From assembly GCA_018401215.1 (NCBI GenBank), contig JAGYLA010000006.1, positions 1 to 34,492 on the forward strand: a stretch of 34,492 bases of DNA, written 5' to 3'. Under the pieces are notes generated by a model, which saw only the letters and a program-made list of their open reading frames with translations, was not told the DNA's origin and did no database searches. Shown here piece by piece: positions 7,179 to 34,492 of the stretch. A program made the position numbers and the translations under genes. This DNA comes from Bacilli bacterium (GTDB lineage Bacteria > Bacillota_I > Bacilli_A > MAG-NZ). Position 1 is the first letter of the stretch. Every line of letters starts with the position of its first letter.

Positions 7179-7779
7179 TCGATGTATACCGTGCCTTTTT
7201 TGTACGCATCGACCATAATTTCTAGTTCTTGTTTGGTTGCTTTAAAGCTCAACGATGGTAGTGTTTCTAAAGAAAACCAATCCATTTCGGTAATTTCAAA
7301 ATTTGGTTCACCCGCTTCGCCGATTGGTTCGGCCAAAAAGACAAGGGTGTAGGTGCTATAAATATCAGACGGCATGTAAAACCGGCGGTCCATCACAGCA
7401 AGCAAGCGCACAATTTTGATTGGAATCCCCGATTCTTCTTGTCCCTTCGGCTAATGCTGCTTCCACCGGACTCTTGCCGATGTCGCACCAACCACCTGGC
7501 AAACTCCACTGGTCTTGGGCTGGCCATTATCGTTCTTTAACCATACAAAACTGCCCCTCTTTGACAATCAAGACCCGAACCGTTGGTGGGGGTAGTTAGC
7601 ACTGACCAGCATACAATCAACCGGTTCAATCGTTTGATTGGAAAACTGATGTAGCATTTGTTTGGAGAGTTCGAGCAACTCTTCATAGTTCTCTAGCGCA
7701 TAGGGGTCAGTCGAATACGATACCCCCGTATGGGCCACTGCCATGACGCGTTTTATAAAAAGTCCAAATAAGTGTCCAT
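7175..7779 (-). pseudogene. NUDIX hydrolase (COG1051 type), frame-broken
   Basis: The gene starts at the ATG at 7779 (GAGGGA upstream) and ends at 7175. Stitching frames gives an N-terminal Nudix_N-like helix domain (THTGVSYSTDPYALENYEE-like) and a Nudix box GGWCDIGKSPVEAALAEG followed by QEESGI, the REUXEEXGU element. The intact C-terminus then contains AVMDRRFYMPSDIYSTYTL. Proteins of this type hydrolyse nucleoside diphosphates such as ADP-ribose. At least four one-base breaks occur: near 7755 in a T run, near 7590 in a C run, between about 7500 and 7540, and near 7440. Homopolymer positions and the conserved pieces in all frames suggest sequence error rather than old decay. Confidence 0.8.
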
Positions 7780-7819
7780 GTATCCCTCACAATGCATTTA
7801 TTCTACCATACGAGTTGCA

Positions 7820-7848
7820 TTGCATTGATGCGTGAAAACGGCTACTAT
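7820..7848 (+). promoter_or_regulatory. Probable promoter of the HutI-like gene
   Basis: TTGCAT (7820-7825), 17-base spacer, TACTAT (7843-7848), about 20 bases before the ATG at 7868, which has GAGG upstream. Each box matches consensus at four of six bases. Confidence 0.45.
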
Positions 7849-7867
7849 AAATCAATGAGGTCTTTTT

Positions 7868-9032
7868 ATGACAACAATTTTCATTAACATTGGCCAACTA
7901 CTGACATTTGATTATCACAAACCGTATTTACGGTTTTCTGAGAACAAATCAACTCAAAATCATCAATGATGCCTACATGTTGAATTCACTGATGGTGTGA
8001 TCAGTAGTGAGGTAACAAACAACGACCCAATAAACTCGAATATAAGGTCGTTGATTGCCACAACATGCTTGTAACACCGGAGCTTCATCGTGCGTTTTGC
8101 GCAGTTAACTACGCAGGGGCACGGTTGGAGGAACTAGATACACCAGGTACGCCAGCGGAAACTGGAATGTTAAAGACAGTCAATGCAACCGATAAGACGT
8201 CTATGAACAACTCACCTATGCAACCGAACAACGCCTGAATACATTACTCGCCCATGGGGTCACGACGGTGAGTGTGCATACGAGCTACGGTGTCCATCCG
8301 GAACAAGAACTTCAGTTGCTTGAAGTGTTAAACAATGTCCAAACCAAACAAACGCTTCAACGTGTATTATACGCCCAAACAACTGCGTCGTTGGAGGCAA
8401 AAAACTACTTCAAGACTGTACGTAAGTCTTGAAACAAAACAAGCACTTGATCGATGCGGTCAACATCCAAAGTATATGACCAAACATTCCTCAAGACACC
8501 GCAGGACGTTCTTGCTTCAAATGAAAGACTTGGGTGTGACAACGTACGTCTGCCGACCAATTCCAAATGGAATCAGCCGCTGAACTTGCCGCTGAAGTCA
8601 AAGCGAACGGCACTGCCATATCAATCATTCGTCCAAATACGGCATCAAGAAACTCGCGGCCTCTGAAACCGTTGCCTGTTTGCTGCCGCTGAGTGCTCAC
8701 TTTAAGAACACCAAACAGCAAACATGGATGTCATCAAAGAAACCAATGCGATCATTTCAATCGCGACCGGTCACAACCCGGTGACCGCACCGAGTTTACA
8801 CTTTACTCATGTCTTACAGTTAGCCCATCGATTGTTGCGCTTGACCCCCAAACAAGTACTCAATGCCGTCACCATCAATGCGGCATTTCAACTTGGGGTG
8901 GAAACGGGTCGATTGTTTGAAGGCGCCGAAGCCACCTTTGTGGTGTGGGATTGTCCAACGTATGACCATTTGTTTTACCATCAAGCGATGAATTTGGTCG
9001 AACAAGTGTACATTCAAGGTAAAAAACGATAA
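7868..9032 (+). pseudogene. Imidazolonepropionase (HutI)-like amidohydrolase, frame-broken and lacking metal ligands
   Basis: The start reads TTIFINIGQLLTFD, the classic HutI opening. Later fragments match HutI in order: VTPELHRAFCAVNYAGAR, HGVTTVSVHTSYGVHPEQEL, ESAAELAAEVKANG, LAASETVACLLPLSAHF, NAIISIATGHNPVTAPS and INAAFQLGVETGRLFEGAEA. HutI hydrolyses imidazolonepropionate in histidine breakdown. At least six frame changes fall between 7920 and 8720; the last 100 codons are clean. In ungapped local comparison the metal-binding HTH is FCA, and the Asp of the ATDFNP motif is Gly (ATGHNP). The HADE and SADH histidines are also not seen. No other hut gene is nearby. The product may be a non-catalytic relative. 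Confidence 0.7.
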
Positions 9033-15237: not shown

Positions 15238-16381
15238 ATGAACAAACTATTTACTTCTGAATCGGTCACTGAAGGCCATCCAGATAAAATTTGCGATCAA
15301 ATTTCCGATGCGATTTTAGATGCTGTGCTCACCCAAGACCCCTCGCTAGGGTTGCGGTTGAAACATTAGTGACCACTGGACTCGTGCTAGTTGCAGGTGA
15401 AGTGAACACCAGTGCGTATGTTGAAATTCAAGACATTGTTCGACAAACGATCAAAACCATTGGTTATGACAATGGGAGTTTGGTTTCGACTCAGAAGAAA
15501 ACGTCTCGGTGTTAACGTCAATTCATTCGCAAAGTCTGACATTGCCCAAGGGGTCGACCGCACCGATCAAGGAGCAGGGGACAGGAAGCAACGATGTTTG
15601 GCTATGCGACCAATGAAACCCGGAATACATGCCTTTACCAATCGTTTTGGCGCATCGCTTGACCAAACACTTGGTGACGTTCACCAAAAGACGGCACCTT
15701 AGCTTATTTACGTCCTGATGGCAAATCGCAAAGTCACCGTCGAATACGATGCAACTGGACAAGCCCTTCGAATTTTTACAATTGTCATTAGCACGCAACA
15801 CGACGAAGATGTCTCGTTAGATACCATCAACAAGACATCAAACGTCTGGTCATCAATCTAGTATTGATGCATCTCACCGTGAGCAAACAATTTATCACAT
15901 CAATAATCCGACCGGTCGCTTTGTGACTGGTGGTCCCAAAGGCGACGCGGGATTGACAGGGCGCAAGATTATCGTCGATACGTATGGGGGATGGGCTCGC
16001 CATGGTGGTGGTGCCTTTAGTGGCAAAGACGCGTCCAAGGTCGACCGATCTGCGGCTTATGCAGCACGATATGTTGCCAAACATGTTGTTGCTAGTGGCG
16101 CGGCCAAAGAGTGTGAAGTCCAACTCTCGTATGCGATTGGGGTGGCCAAGCCCGTCTCGATTACCGTCGACACGTTTGGTTCGAACACCGTTCCAGTTGA
16201 GTCCATTGTCCGGGCAATTGAACAAACGTTCGATTTGCGACCGGCAGCGATTATTCGTCAACTCGAGTTGACCAAACCTTGTTTTCTAGCAACGGCGGCA
16301 TACGGTCATTTTGGCCGCAACGAGTTTCGCTGGGAGCAACTTGATTTGCTAGAATCCTTTAATCAGCATGTAACGAAATGA
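15238..16381 (+). pseudogene. metK: S-adenosylmethionine synthetase, frame-broken as sequenced
   Basis: MetK makes SAM from methionine and ATP. The ATG at 15238 has GGGAG six bases upstream and gives [20 protein letters not shown], the family start with the ATP-binding His. Fragments in changing frames continue with [30 protein letters not shown] and PLPIVLAHRLTK-like pieces. From about 15850 the frame is clean: [40 protein letters not shown] and a normal C-terminus, stopping at 16379-16381. At least eight one-base changes lie between 15340 and 15850. Because metK is normally essential, and its riboswitch and second half are intact, sequence error is the likeliest cause. Total length (about 380 codons) is normal. 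Confidence 0.9.
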
Positions 16382-22106: not shown

Positions 22107-24488
22107 TTATTCGACGCGCAATGCTTCGACCGGGTCTTTCTTCGCCGCAATGCGGGAAGGAATGAGCCCAGAGATTAATGTCAAGAACGTCGAGATGAGA
22201 ATCAAGTAAATCGCATGGTCGGCTCGCAAGATGACCAAATCAAAGTCAACGGTGTCAACAAATTGAATCAACAAGGAGTTGATCGGGAAACTTAACCCGT
22301 AGGTAATCAACACGCCAAGTGAACCCGCGGTGACGCCAATGATGATTGTTTCTGCATTGAACAAGCGAGAGATGTCTTTTTTACGAGCACCAATCGCACG
22401 CAAGATACCGATTTCTTTCGTTCGCTCAATCACACTGACGTACGTAATGATTCCAATCATGATGCTTGAGACCAGCAAACTAATGGCGGCAAAGATGACC
22501 AAGACGATACTGATTGTACTGACCAGTTCACCAAAGATGTTCGTGATCGTCTGCGCCAAATCTTGATACAGCATGCGATATCATCATCGGTCATTGGTTC
22601 AAAGCTGCTGTCACTGTGACTCGCCATACACGTCATAGGTACGTAACCGTCGCCCGCTTCCCATGTGTATTCACCAACCGCAGCGCGTTGACAGGCGCTG
22701 CCATGCAGGTCGTTCAGATCATCAAGTACGTACGGAATCAAATTCTTATTGTCAAACGTGCTCGGATACAGTTCAATGCGTCGTGGGTGGATACCGCACC
22801 GACGGTTCGGCAGTGCATCAATTGTCGCACCACGAGGATCCAGCACACTTAGTGGACTATTTGGGTCCTGCAAGTACGGTGAATCAGCAATCGATCGGCA
22901 CAATGTTGTGAGGTTTGTGCTTCTTCGATCACAATCGCAGGTAAGATCCGAATGTAAAGATGACGGCGAGTTGTCCGGAAAGTCAGGCAACGAGCGGTCG
23001 AATCCACCGACCACGTTCAATTGCCATGCATCATCAAGTAGCACCTTGCAAGTCTGGAGTTCGAGAATAGAATCCTGTGTCTTCATTTTTCAAAGTACTG
23101 AGATATCGGAACCAAACGAAAGTTGTGTGCCAATCAAATCATCTAGGGCGAAAAAATGGTTCTTCGCCAAGACCAAGTTCAATCGCGACGCGGAAGTCAA
23201 AGCGGTTGAACTCATCGACTTAAACGATCTCAAAGTCATTTTCTGGCAGACGACCAGCAACGACTTCAAAATCATTGACCCAAGACTTCATCTGCGAGGA
23301 AGAAATCCCTAGTCGCAAGTTGCCACGGTTGACAATCGACGTCATCGTCGTAAATTAAGAAAATTCAAACTGACGCCATATGTATAGCGATAAGCTTGTC
23401 CATGAATCATCCATTTCATTGAGGTACGTGATGTATTCATCAGTAATTTGGTTGCGGTGCAATTGCAGGTGCTGCTTGCGGGTCAATGGAATTGCAAAGT
23501 CCAAATCAAATTCTTTGATTCGAAAACTCGCCTTGTGTGACAACCGAAGACGGAGGACCAAACGGCGTTTGAATGTTTTCATCGAGCGTAATGGTAAAAT
23601 CCGATAACGTATCACGTTCCAAGTTTCCATTTCCTTCACCAAATCCATTGGACAATGCTAAGACAAGGGCAACCAATGATGCCGATGCTCAGCAAACGCG
23701 GTAATTATGGTTCGGGCAAATTTGTCCGTAAGTTTGACAAACTAAGGCGCAGTGACCGTTAAAGTTCATCGACGTGTTTTTCATTTTGATACAGGACGGT
23801 TCATCACTGGCTTGGTGGGATTGGTGTCATCGACGACTTTTCCATCTTGCAAGCGAAATGATGCGGTCCGAGTAGTCCTTTGCGAGTTGTTCGTTGTGCG
23901 TCACCCATGATGACCAATTTTCTTGAAGACGTCTTTGACCAAGTTCATGATTTCTTCACTGGTTTCAGTGTCTAATGCTCCGGTTGGTTCATCCATCATG
24001 ATGATATCGGGGTCATTGGTCACAGCCCGAGCAATCGCAACGCGTTGTTTTTGTCCCCCTGACAGTTGGGTTGGTTTTTTGTACACGTGTGCTTTTAAGC
24101 CAACAAGTTCTAAAATGCGTAAGGCTTTGGCTTTGCGTTCACGCTTAGAGATTCCTGAAAGCGTCATCGCAATCTCGACATTCGCTAACACACTAATGTG
24201 ACTGATCAAGTTGTAGCTTTGAAAGACAAAGCCAATCGAGTTGTTTCGGTAGGCATCCCAATCGGCATCTTTGAATTGCTTCGTGGATTTGCCGTTGATG
24301 ACCAAGTCACCACCGTCATAGCGATCGAGTCCACCAATGATATTCAAAAAGGTGGTCTTACCTGACCCTGATTCTCCTAAAATTGAGACGAATCCGCGTT
24401 CACCGAATGATAACGTAACGCCGTCCAAAGCCCGCTGACTAAATTCACCGACTTTATATGCTTTGACAATATCTCGTAGTTGTAACAT
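22107..24488 (-). pseudogene. ABC ATPase-permease fusion (MacB/FtsX type), frame-broken
   Basis: The N-terminal 195 codons (24488-23901) are a clean LolD/MacB-type ATPase: Walker A GESGSGKTT, Q-loop FVFQSYNL, signature [15 protein letters not shown] and Walker [16 protein letters not shown]. The C-terminal 150 codons (22574-22107) are a clean FtsX domain, with ISLLVSSIMIGIITYVSVIERTKEIGILRAIGARKKDISR and the usual PVEALRVE end split by about 100 residues. Between 22560 and 23900, family-like pieces (KNTSMNF, ALVLALSNGF, HPRRIELYPSTFDNK) appear in shifting frames. Total length would be about 794 codons. Such proteins act in export or antimicrobial-peptide resistance. The upstream MarR gene ends one base before it. 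Confidence 0.82.
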
Positions 24489-26850: not shown

Positions 26851-27654
26851 TCAAGATGGTTGGAATGCGCCAAACAGTACAAGCCAAGTCAGAATCGATT
26901 TGGAAACCAACGACAAGATGATGTAGCCGCGTTCGCCAACCAAGTAGTCTTTGAATTTCCCAATGCCTGCATATTGTAACCACATGTTCACAGGGAACGT
27001 GTTGAAGGCGATGAAATACGTTGCTAGAATCGCCCAGACAAATCCAGGGACACCATCAATGTTCGGGTTAACCCCAATATAGAAGGCAATCGCGATCCAT
27101 GGGGCTAGCCCAATGATCGATCCAAAGATGAATGGCAACCAGTTTGTTTTGCGCTCGGACTTGTCCGCTCCAGCGTTCAACAACTCCATGTCGAGTCCAA
27201 ACAAGTTCATTCCGGCATTCGACAAGGCAATCAATGAAAACAAGGCAACATCACGAACACCAAACAACGAGGAAATCAAAATAATCATGATCGAGGAGCT
27301 TAACGCATACTCGTACCAACGTAGTTTGTTGATACCAATTTTTAAGTCCGACTTGTATTTCTCTTTGTATGGCACCGCAATAATAAAGTGAAACAATGCT
27401 GACAGCAATAAGAAACTTGCGGTTAACGGTAAGAATGGTAAATCAAACAAGGTTTCTGTTGCTGTTAAGACCAGTCCTTCACCAACAACAAAGTCCAAGT
27501 AGTACCCATTAACAGGAATCGTAAACGTGTTCCCTGCTTCTGACAAGTTTGGGTAGATAAAGAAAGCGAAATACATCATGAACGATCCTTGCAATAAATG
27601 AATCAAGCCCATGATTTTATTGAATGATACTAATTTCTCTAAACGTAGTTCCAT
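26851..27654 (-). CDS. Heliorhodopsin (intact copy)
   Basis: A 267-residue seven-helix retinal protein of the heliorhodopsin family, inserted with inverted topology compared with type-1 rhodopsins and thought to act in light sensing or signalling rather than pumping. Diagnostic segments are LRWYEYALSSSIMI in helix 3, with the Schiff-base counterion Glu115, FNTFPVNMWLQYAGIGKFKDY before the last helix, and LSLVSKSILTWLVLFG in helix 7 with the retinal-binding Lys252. It has its own promoter and AAGGAG site and lies directly behind a second, frame-broken heliorhodopsin gene. No retinal biosynthesis gene is in the window. Confidence 0.93.
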   Translation of the reverse strand: MELRLEKLVSFNKIMGLIHLLQGSFMMYFAFFIYPNLSEAGNTFTIPVNGYYLDFVVGEGLVLTATETLFDLPFLPLTASFLLLSALFHFIIAVPYKEKYKSDLKIGINKLRWYEYALSSSIMIILISSLFGVRDVALFSLIALSNAGMNLFGLDMELLNAGADKSERKTNWLPFIFGSIIGLAPWIAIAFYIGVNPNIDGVPGFVWAILATYFIAFNTFPVNMWLQYAGIGKFKDYLVGERGYIILSLVSKSILTWLVLFGAFQPS

Positions 27655-27683
27655 AGATTCTCCTTATGGTTTAATTTCTAACT

Positions 27684-27712
27684 ATTTTACCACGAGTGAA
27701 TCGTTTGTTCAA
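27684..27712 (-). promoter_or_regulatory. Promoter of the intact heliorhodopsin gene
   Basis: TTGAAC (27707-27712), 17-base spacer, extended -10 TGGTAAAAT (core TAAAAT 27684-27689). The -35 box directly follows the stop codon of the upstream heliorhodopsin gene. Confidence 0.65.
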
Positions 27713-28480
27713 TTATAGAGTGTTGATCGCAGCTTCGGTAAAGACTGCAGCAAAGAACACGAGCCATGCAAGAACACTTTTGGCGGTAATGCTCAACCAA
27801 ACGTAAGTTTTTTCACCAAATTCATAGTTGGCCCAGCGGCCGACACGACGATATTGCAAGTACATGTTGACCGGGAACAAGTTAAACGATACAAAGTATG
27901 TCGCTAAGATGGCCCACGCGTACCACGGAATCAAGTCCCAGCCTCCAGAAAGTAGGTAAAGTAGGACAATGCACCCCATGGTGCAAATCAACTGATACTA
28001 CTAAGTTCCCAATTGACGTCTTCTTTTGCTTTGTTTTGATTCAGTATCATCAAACCAAAAATGTTCATCGCTGCATTTGGCGAGTAATGATCAAGCAATC
28101 GTTCCAATGTCTTTGGCCCAAAGATTGCCCCAATCAAAACAATCGCTGACGCTGCTAGAGCATATTCATACCAACAGTATCGGTTGATGCCGGCGAATGT
28201 CTTTATAATGCCTTCTTTGCGTGAACAATGATTCCGATACGCCACTGCTGACAATAACAAAAATGCCTGGAAGCTACAGCTGGACCAAACGGCAAGACAA
28301 ACGCGTCTCGACTTGTGGTGAACAACTCTTCGTTGGCATCAAGCGGTGGAACAACACGACAGTTGTGGACTAAATTCTTCCACGTTACTAATGGTTATAA
28401 AATAACATGGCAATCCCGCTTGGATAAATGCCGCAACTGCCAATTGCATTCAAACGGACTAACTGTTCTGTTGCCCTGCA
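27713..28480 (-). pseudogene. Second heliorhodopsin gene, frame-broken
   Basis: Reading leftward, pieces in several frames match the neighbouring heliorhodopsin in order: EQLVRLNAIA near the start, FLLLSAVAYRN, CWYEYALAASAIVLIGAIFG with the counterion Glu, SPNAAMNIFGL, AWAILATYFVSFNLFPVNMYLQYRRVGRW and SITAKSVLAWLVFFA with the retinal Lys. Helix 3 to helix 7 are readable; breaks lie near 27990 and at several places between 28255 and 28480. The sequence differs clearly from its neighbour (for example YRRVGRWANYEFGEKTYVW versus YAGIGKFKDYLVGERGYII), so it is an old duplication, not an assembly repeat. The start codon cannot be fixed. Confidence 0.82.
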
Positions 28481-28489
28481 ATGGGTTTT

Positions 28490-29465
28490 AGTAATGCTTC
28501 GTTTTAAACTTGAGGTAGCGGCTCTTTGGCTTCCTCGTTTTGTGCACATATTGGATCAAATCCAATTTACGCAAGGTTAACGGGTATTAATCGCTGGCTG
28601 GTCAGTTCATCGATAAAGTCTTTGACGTACCCGCAGTGGCGTTGGTCCTACTCTTGCCAGAGTTCATCCGGTCCCTGCTAAATGCTAGCCATGATTTCAT
28701 CAATCAAGCCATTCATCCACGCTAAGATGGTCACCCGGAAGCACCATGCGTGCAAGCGTAATTTATTCGTAATGTAGATAATCAACATTGCCGCCTTTTT
28801 CAATTTTGATGTTTTCCAATCGGTGACACTGTCTGAGTTTCAAGCTCCTTACATGCTTCAATCAAATATTGTTTTCAAAGCGTTCAATCAACATGGGATG
28901 CAGGAAATATAATCGCACCTGGTGGTCATTATAATCGTTCAAAGGGGTCAAATGGCGCAAATGTGCGACATTTTCATCTGCATGGATTAATCTAAAGTGC
29001 GGAGCTGAAACTCTGGCAACAGTGAGAGCGTTCAAGTCCCACAAACTTTGAAAAAACGATTCACTTAAAGCGCAAACGGCAAAAAGGAATGAGTGGCTTG
29101 TTTCAACATGAGCACTAAGAATAAATCCGGCGCCAGTCCATAGCAAGTGTTTCAGAATCATCGCATGCACGGGTTCACTGGTTATTTTTGATGTGATCTC
29201 GAATGATACATTCATGCAAGAAGGCATGTTGCACGTCATCACCGACGCGCCGGCGCACTTCGATCAAGTGGCCTTGGTGTTTGATGACAAACCCTTGGAT
29301 ACCGTCTGCAGTCGCAAGCACGGATTCGACGACTTGACCATGCGGTTCACCGATGCTATCAAGGTCTGACGAAGTCAGTCCCATGTCTGCAAGCGAGCCG
29401 ATAACAATGTTCTTCCCTTCGGCAATAAGTTGTTGATAATACAATTTTCGTTCGTTAGAATTCAT
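28490..29465 (-). pseudogene. Unrecognised gene upstream of the heliorhodopsins, frame-broken
   Basis: I do not recognise this gene. It starts at ATG 29465 (GAGGA upstream) and reads clean for 96 codons to a TGA at 29175-29177. The clean part holds NERKLYYQQLIAEGKNIVIG, a TADGIQGFVIKHQGHLIEVR strand pattern and VGDDVQHAFLHECIIRD. Further left, coding-like pieces occur in shifting frames: HADENVAHLRHLTPLNDY, VRLYFLHPMLIERFEN, LIEACKELETQTV, ARMVLPGDHLSVDEWLD and DFIDELTSQR. Together they suggest a soluble alpha/beta protein of about 320 residues. It is divergent from the ROK kinase gene and on the same strand as the two heliorhodopsins. Confidence 0.5.
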
Positions 29466-29514: not shown

Positions 29515-30370
29515 ATGCGACTAGGCGCTATTGAAGCTGGCGGCACGAAGTTTGTCTTGGCCACTGGTGACATCACCGGTCAAGTATTTGAGCGAACCGT
29601 CATCAAAACAACAACCCCAAGCGAAACCATGGATCTGGTTCAGTGGTTTCTTGACCATCCAGTGGAACGAATTGGCATTGGCACCTTTGGTCCTGTCGAT
29701 TTGTCACCAAGCAGTCCGACATATGGTTCGATTTTAGAAACCCCAAAACTTGCATGGCGCGGTTTCAATTATGTTCAGGCGCTGGCGCCCTTGAATGTTC
29801 CCGATCGCGCTAGACACCGATGTCAACGTGTGTGCGTTATCTGAGTCGATTTTGGGGGCCGCCCGTGATGTTGATAGTTGTGTGTATTTGACTGTCGGAA
29901 CAGGAATTGGTGGCGGTATATGTATTAACGGCCAAACCATCAAGGGGTTGCAACATCCGGAGATGGGTCATATCCCTGTAATTCGTCATCCAGCAGATAC
30001 GTACGCGGGTGGTTGCCCTAGTCACACCGATTGTTTGGAAGGGCTTGCGAGTGGTCCTGCGATTGAAGCTCGCGCGGGTCAACCCGCAGCGAAACTTGCA
30101 CCCGATCATCTTGTATTTACGATTGAAAGTGATTACTTGGCTCAAGCGATTTATACGTATGCCCTGGTCTTGAGTCCCAAGCGATTTGTGTTAGGTGGCG
30201 GGGTAATGCATGTGCCAGGGTTGCTCGAACAAATTCGTAATCAAGTCACACATAAAAACAAGGGGTATTTGGCTCACATTGATGCATTGCCTGACTATAT
30301 TGTCGCACCAGGACTGGGCGATGATGTGGGAATCATTGGGTGTTTCTTGATCACGAATTCAACCCGTTAA
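29515..30370 (+). CDS. ROK-family fructokinase, one frameshift
   Basis: The enzyme phosphorylates fructose or a related hexose with ATP. The start LGAIEAGGTKFVLATGD contains the ROK phosphate-binding EAGGTK motif. IGIGTFGPVDL and TYGSILETPKLAW follow, as in B. subtilis YdhR/GmuE. After a single break near 29790, the frame continues ALDTDVNVCALSE (catalytic Asp), TVGTGIGGGI and HPEMGHIPVIRHP. CPSHTDCLEGLASGPAIEAR then completes the Cys/His zinc site, and the C-terminus is normal. All functional residues are present, so the break may be an error. It converges on a sugar ABC importer, which suggests it handles the imported sugar. Confidence 0.88.
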
Positions 30371-33776: not shown

Positions 33777-34492
33777 TTACTGAAAGGTATTTTCAAACCC
33801 CGATAGCTGACCGGTGGTGTTCAATAAGAGGGCGTCGTTAAAATATAAGTTGAGGCCGATTGTGGCATCAATGCTTTCTAAGACATCCTCAGTCATTCGG
33901 GCGCCGTCCGTTGGCCCCACTAGTTTGACCCAGTGCGAACGTTTCGCTTGAATCTCTAAGCGAAAACGCCCCCGTTTAATCACGAGCTCTACTTCGGTTG
34001 GCGTAGACTTGGTAATTTTAAGGCTCGCTAAATTATAAATCGCAAAGCGGTATTCGTCTTTGTCGTGACGCAGCACGGCAAACCAGCCTTTGACCTTGAT
34101 GCCAAGCAGGGGTAAGACACCCACGGAAAAACTCAAATACGTGTCAGGAACGTCAAAGTGAGCACTTTGCAACCAAATGTGACCGGGAGGAAACCGGTGA
34201 CCATACGTCTTTTCCATGTACGTTTGACCATCGACCATCACTTCGTTGTCGCGCACTCGCATGCTTCCTTGTAAGGTCGCATTCAAATACACCACTTCTT
34301 GTGCGGTTTGAAGCGGGAAATACGAGACAAAGCCCATCGCACTTTGGGTACCAAATTGCGGAGTCAAGGTCACAGGGTTGGAGATCCTAAAATCACACGC
34401 AAAGGATGCTTCATCAATCAAGATGTGCGCTGGGCTAATCGAATTCGGACCAATGAAAACCGAGTCCCCATCAATACGAAACTCACTGAGTG
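33777..34492 (-). CDS. Tocopherol-cyclase-like protein (5' end outside window)
   Basis: The frame runs uninterrupted from the right edge to the stop at 33777-33779 (about 238 codons seen). The first visible residues, SEFRIDGDSVFIGPNSI, belong to a beta-sandwich start. YMEKTYGHRFPPGHIWLQSAHF is the landmark of the tocopherol-cyclase-like family (PF14249; family EKxWGxxFPxxWxWxQ). Bacterial members without tocopherol metabolism are common and of unknown function, probably binding a lipid-like ligand. It ends ten bases before the -35 box of the importer promoter, so the two units are separate. Confidence 0.8.
   Translation of the reverse strand, partial: LSEFRIDGDSVFIGPNSISPAHILIDEASFACDFRISNPVTLTPQFGTQSAMGFVSYFPLQTAQEVVYLNATLQGSMRVRDNEVMVDGQTYMEKTYGHRFPPGHIWLQSAHFDVPDTYLSFSVGVLPLLGIKVKGWFAVLRHDKDEYRFAIYNLASLKITKSTPTEVELVIKRGRFRLEIQAKRSHWVKLVGPTDGARMTEDVLESIDATIGLNLYFNDALLLNTTGQLSGFENTFQ

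Follow-up and report, generated by a model that had tools for sequence, protein, structure and literature searches.

Heliorhodopsins are light-sensing membrane proteins whose function is still disputed, and the locus described here raises the question of whether a single bacterium carries two unlike members of this family side by side, and whether the second of them, whose reading frame is broken, is broken in the cell or in the assembly. The window, the whole stretch of 34,492 nucleotides that was analysed, is contig C56 of the genome assembly of a small uncultured bacterium from the Izemoplasma neighbourhood (796 kb, 61 contigs, 78.6% complete). We take the contig to be correctly binned because its IF-2 is nearest to the genome's own family (60–63%), a placement that rules out mis-binning. 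The features under discussion are:

26851–27654, minus strand: HeR1, an intact heliorhodopsin of 267 amino acids, lineage A (by PF18761, clade support, near-invariant positions and PDB 6is6)
27655–27712, minus strand: gap of 58 bases between the HeR2 stop and the HeR1 start, with promoter-like and ribosome-binding-like sites read from the sequence
27713–27938, minus strand: 3' third of HeR2, open frame in clean sequence, with the retinal lysine and 19 of 23 near-invariant positions retained
27939–28470, minus strand: 5' two thirds of HeR2, which has about 8 frame changes and a single stop and retains the helix-3 glutamate and 28–30 of 43 near-invariant positions
27939–29186, no strand: patch without coding signal in the coding-frame model, read as low-quality sequence, taking in the 5' part of HeR2 and about 700 further bases with no assignment
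15247–16363, plus strand: metK, a control and the genome's sole copy, 9 frame breaks in 15344–15886 and clean afterwards

HeR1 matches the Pfam profile PF18761 over its full length (E = 3.4e-81, profile positions 2–241 of 242) and the heliorhodopsins of the PDB at E-values of about 1e-41 or better (6is6, E = 5e-43). It keeps the counterion Glu115, Ser248, the retinal lysine Lys252 and the conserved histidines H19 and H89. None of the 45 near-invariant positions tested has been lost; Glu115 and Lys252 are among them, standing at columns invariant in intact heliorhodopsins, and were also aligned to 6is6. HeR1 belongs to a 21-member clade with support of 100/100, here termed lineage A, whose other members come from Izemoplasma-type MAGs. 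It is 76–81% identical to the lineage-A copies of genomes whose IF-2 is only 48–59% identical, and no heliorhodopsin was found in three relatives from the genome's own family. Judged by sequence identity, lineage A is strongly conserved; the high identity of HeR1, together with family relatives that lack the gene, is compatible with strong constraint, with horizontal transfer or with both.

HeR2 lies directly upstream of HeR1, head to tail on the same minus strand, and spans 27713 to about 28470. PF18761 matches two separate fragments of it, at 27713–27991 (E = 2.8e-25, profile positions 167–241) and at 27988–28260 (E = 3.5e-9). A frameshift-tolerant alignment covers residues 7–257 of an intact heliorhodopsin at 49% identity (115 of 236) and, as assembled, runs through 8 frame changes and 1 in-frame stop that break the open reading frame. 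When the damaged part was shuffled the alignment score fell from 510 to 261–283, so the match is not due to chance. The helix-3 glutamate and the helix-7 retinal lysine are both present, the helix-2 histidine position reads tyrosine, and the helix-1 histidine, which falls within the low-quality patch, can be read only in a different frame. The original prediction, correct in its coordinates, had described an intact heliorhodopsin with Glu115 and Lys252 in tandem with a second, clearly different copy retaining the helix-3 and helix-7 residues, and this description is borne out for both genes.

HeR1 had also been credited with a promoter of its own, placed right behind the HeR2 stop. A promoter-like TTGAAC-17-TAAAAT, with TG before the second hexamer, does start at 27712, adjoining that stop, and a ribosome-binding-like AAGGAG precedes the HeR1 ATG; a separate promoter is only suggestive, however, because matches to 9 of the 12 positions of the promoter pattern are common by chance (11 found versus 4.6 expected). 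Downstream of HeR1, behind a terminator-like site, lie a DUF2975 protein and an HTH_26 regulator, a pairing for which we know of no link to light. A conserved gene neighbourhood was considered and rejected, as the neighbours of lineage-A heliorhodopsins vary and have no block in common with the window. In several relatives (L018, L020, L022, L024, L026, L027) a tocopherol-cyclase-like gene follows the lineage-A copy, and a distant relative of this gene stands at the right edge of the window (33777–34490, minus strand), 6 kb from HeR1. Other genes in the window are also incomplete as assembled: an FtsX-type ABC permease (22110–23925, minus strand) is broken, with only its C-terminal part and the adjoining ATPase open; the remains of a Nudix hydrolase (7200–8800, minus strand) lie in two frames inside a further patch; and a ROK-family sugar kinase (29515–30370, plus strand) is interrupted by a single frame change near 29800.

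The cause of the breaks in HeR2 can be approached through genes that should be essential, such as metK and valS. On contig C6 (L218 3200–7200), lon, ysxC and the genome's only full-length valS match are shredded in one patch, and argF is shredded in another on contig C8. Stretches free of coding signal are also found on contigs C1, C3, C4, C7 and C8, and 324 kb of other contigs contain about 17 such stretches of at least 500 bases, only some of which were identified and not all of which need be errors. In the patch over HeR2, Pfam gave no match upstream of the gene. The density of breaks in HeR2 is that of metK and valS (roughly one every 60 bases, with 8 breaks in about 500), and because the two control genes should be essential, local poor sequence is the likeliest cause, in support of the sequence-quality damage originally suspected for the second frame. 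A decayed pseudogene deduced from the frame breaks alone was withdrawn, metK and valS being equally broken, and genome reduction was rejected as the cause, the patches being local and the switch to clean sequence inside metK sharp. A fragment on contig C10 that had been suspected to be a second piece of valS showed no DNA-level match to the C6 gene beyond a leader stretch. Against poor sequence as the cause, decay of metK is known in some host-bound bacteria (Rickettsia). Frame breaks in this assembly should not be taken as pseudogenes without a control gene.

Taken as one joint reading, we consider it reasonably probable that two heliorhodopsin genes of different lineages lie side by side in this genome, that HeR1 is by its residues a working-looking lineage-A heliorhodopsin, that HeR2 is a second, older heliorhodopsin and not a recent copy of HeR1, and that its frame would be broken mainly by a poor-sequence patch like those that shred the sole metK and the sole valS. 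Two findings speak against the part played by bad sequence. The damaged part of metK (540 bases, 9 frame breaks) keeps 62 of 68 invariant residues, a loss of 6, versus 13–15 of 43 near-invariant residues lost by HeR2 within its patch, an excess that points to genuine decay or to unusually rapid change; and in a genome that is 78.6% complete, further copies of metK or valS may be absent from the assembly. HeR2 may accordingly be viewed as a true and fairly young pseudogene, no longer needed and decaying beside a surviving HeR1, which we regard as possible but somewhat unlikely. It has lost more near-invariant residues than metK did at an equal error load, and more than intact heliorhodopsins do. 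The latter holds for the clean 3' third as well, in which 4 of 23 such residues are gone and intact heliorhodopsins (about 123) lose at most one. The three family relatives without any heliorhodopsin agree with a gene no longer needed, as does the middle stretch of HeR2, which is unbroken but has a weak coding signal (1.6th percentile); in its middle this piece also resembles a pair of compensating frame changes. The equal break density in the two presumably essential genes argues the other way, and the clean 3' third retains both a normal coding signal (28th percentile) and the retinal lysine. On balance, and with some reserve, we think it likelier that HeR2 was originally intact and is masked by poor sequence than that it is a young pseudogene.

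A join made by the assembler between genes from different strains or organisms, which the original prediction had itself named as a way in which the pair might be spurious, is very unlikely. The two genes are of different lineages and the patch might be the trace of a junction with weak support, but the 3' third of HeR2, the gap and HeR1 form one clean block with unchanged G+C, HeR2 is collinear through the patch edge, and IF-2 puts the contig with its own family. We give as little credence to an origin of HeR2 by recent tandem duplication of HeR1 followed by fast divergence. Direct adjacency on the same strand is what such a duplicate would show, and the trees do not formally reject it: HeR1 and HeR2 as a group of their own cost 15.8 log units (p-AU 0.06), and a grouping of HeR2 with the whole of lineage A likewise passes the test (p-AU 0.39 and 0.80). 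Yet HeR2 has only 2 of 30 signature residues of lineage A (and 2 of 21 of lineage B, described below), and at 11 of the 30 lineage-A signature positions it has the commonest outside, canonical residue. Its summed similarity score is likewise higher with canonical heliorhodopsins (156) than with lineage A (139). HeR2 is thus probably no young copy of HeR1, because it has almost no lineage-A signature residues. The phylogeny envisaged for both copies succeeded for HeR1 alone; the end branch of HeR2 reached 2.2–4.7 changes per site, and the trees gave it no stable placement. No HeR2-like sequences were found in viral contigs.

We counted heliorhodopsins above the cut-off in a class-wide sample of 395 genomes. 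Seventy genomes had at least one, and about nine of the 70 had two or more near-complete copies. Among the 20 genomes with lineage A, 13 hold two or three heliorhodopsins, so the expectation that these proteins are usually single-copy fails in this lineage. Of the extra copies, nine fall into another lineage with full support (100/100), here termed B, and are 45–49% identical to the lineage-A copy of the same genome. Lineage B (L094, L103, L112, L114, L116–L119, L121), present in genomes that also carry lineage A, has a very long stem and deviates at otherwise near-invariant positions, for example from Met to Gln at HeR1 position 224. A directly adjacent pair, the homologous arrangement that had been sought in relatives, occurred in no other sampled genome, including all 20 with lineage A; the closest arrangement is that of G062 and G078, in which a third kind of heliorhodopsin lies 3.0 kb upstream of the lineage-A gene with three genes between. 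What is new is the direct tandem arrangement; the family itself is known. In the open-licence literature searched, we found no description of such tandem pairs or of sets of two or three diverged heliorhodopsins in these bacteria. The 13 lineage-A genomes that keep several diverged copies, two or three each, are a ready-made setting in which to compare how the copies differ in function. The original prediction had suggested that a diverged pair could give two spectral or signalling states, which is a conjecture at this stage. A more ambitious proposal would have an unbroken HeR2 in the living cell, expressed together with the unlike HeR1, the two perhaps forming mixed dimers or serving as two sensors, with the frequent two or three lineages per genome in these Bacilli amounting to an undescribed two-sensor light system; as a whole, we consider this improbable.

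From its residues, HeR1 would bind retinal at Lys252 with Glu115 as the counterion and, by analogy with the heliorhodopsins studied so far, would sense light and modulate other proteins, not pump. The BCD family of retinal synthesis (PF15461), sought elsewhere in the genome as the original prediction had proposed, had no match there, but the control was likewise without a match anywhere, so the missing match does not amount to absence of the family. HeR1 is of the same family by sequence as heliorhodopsin 48C12 and TaHeR (PDB 6su3, 6uh3, 6is6), with the Glu counterion and the retinal lysine in common, but is distant from them (E-values near 1e-42). Heliorhodopsins act as light-dependent regulators of a partner in three studied systems, with a photolyase in Trichococcus (PMC9769723), with glutamine synthetase in actinobacteria (PMC9529153) and with an ABC transporter in the case of OcHeR (PMC11109279). 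Partner regulation of this kind is possible for HeR1 by inference, and a light sensor that modulates a partner protein is its most likely role, although HeR1, unlike those systems, adjoins no photolyase, glutamine synthetase or such transporter. Its nearest counterparts are the lineage-A heliorhodopsins of Izemoplasma-type Bacilli MAGs (L012–L029, L065, L088), which are 73–84% identical to HeR1 and fall in the same 100/100 clade. These MAGs differ in that their lineage-A copy has no directly adjacent heliorhodopsin, further copies being at least 3 kb away or on other contigs; if HeR2 is intact, the cell would, like many of these relatives, have two different heliorhodopsins.
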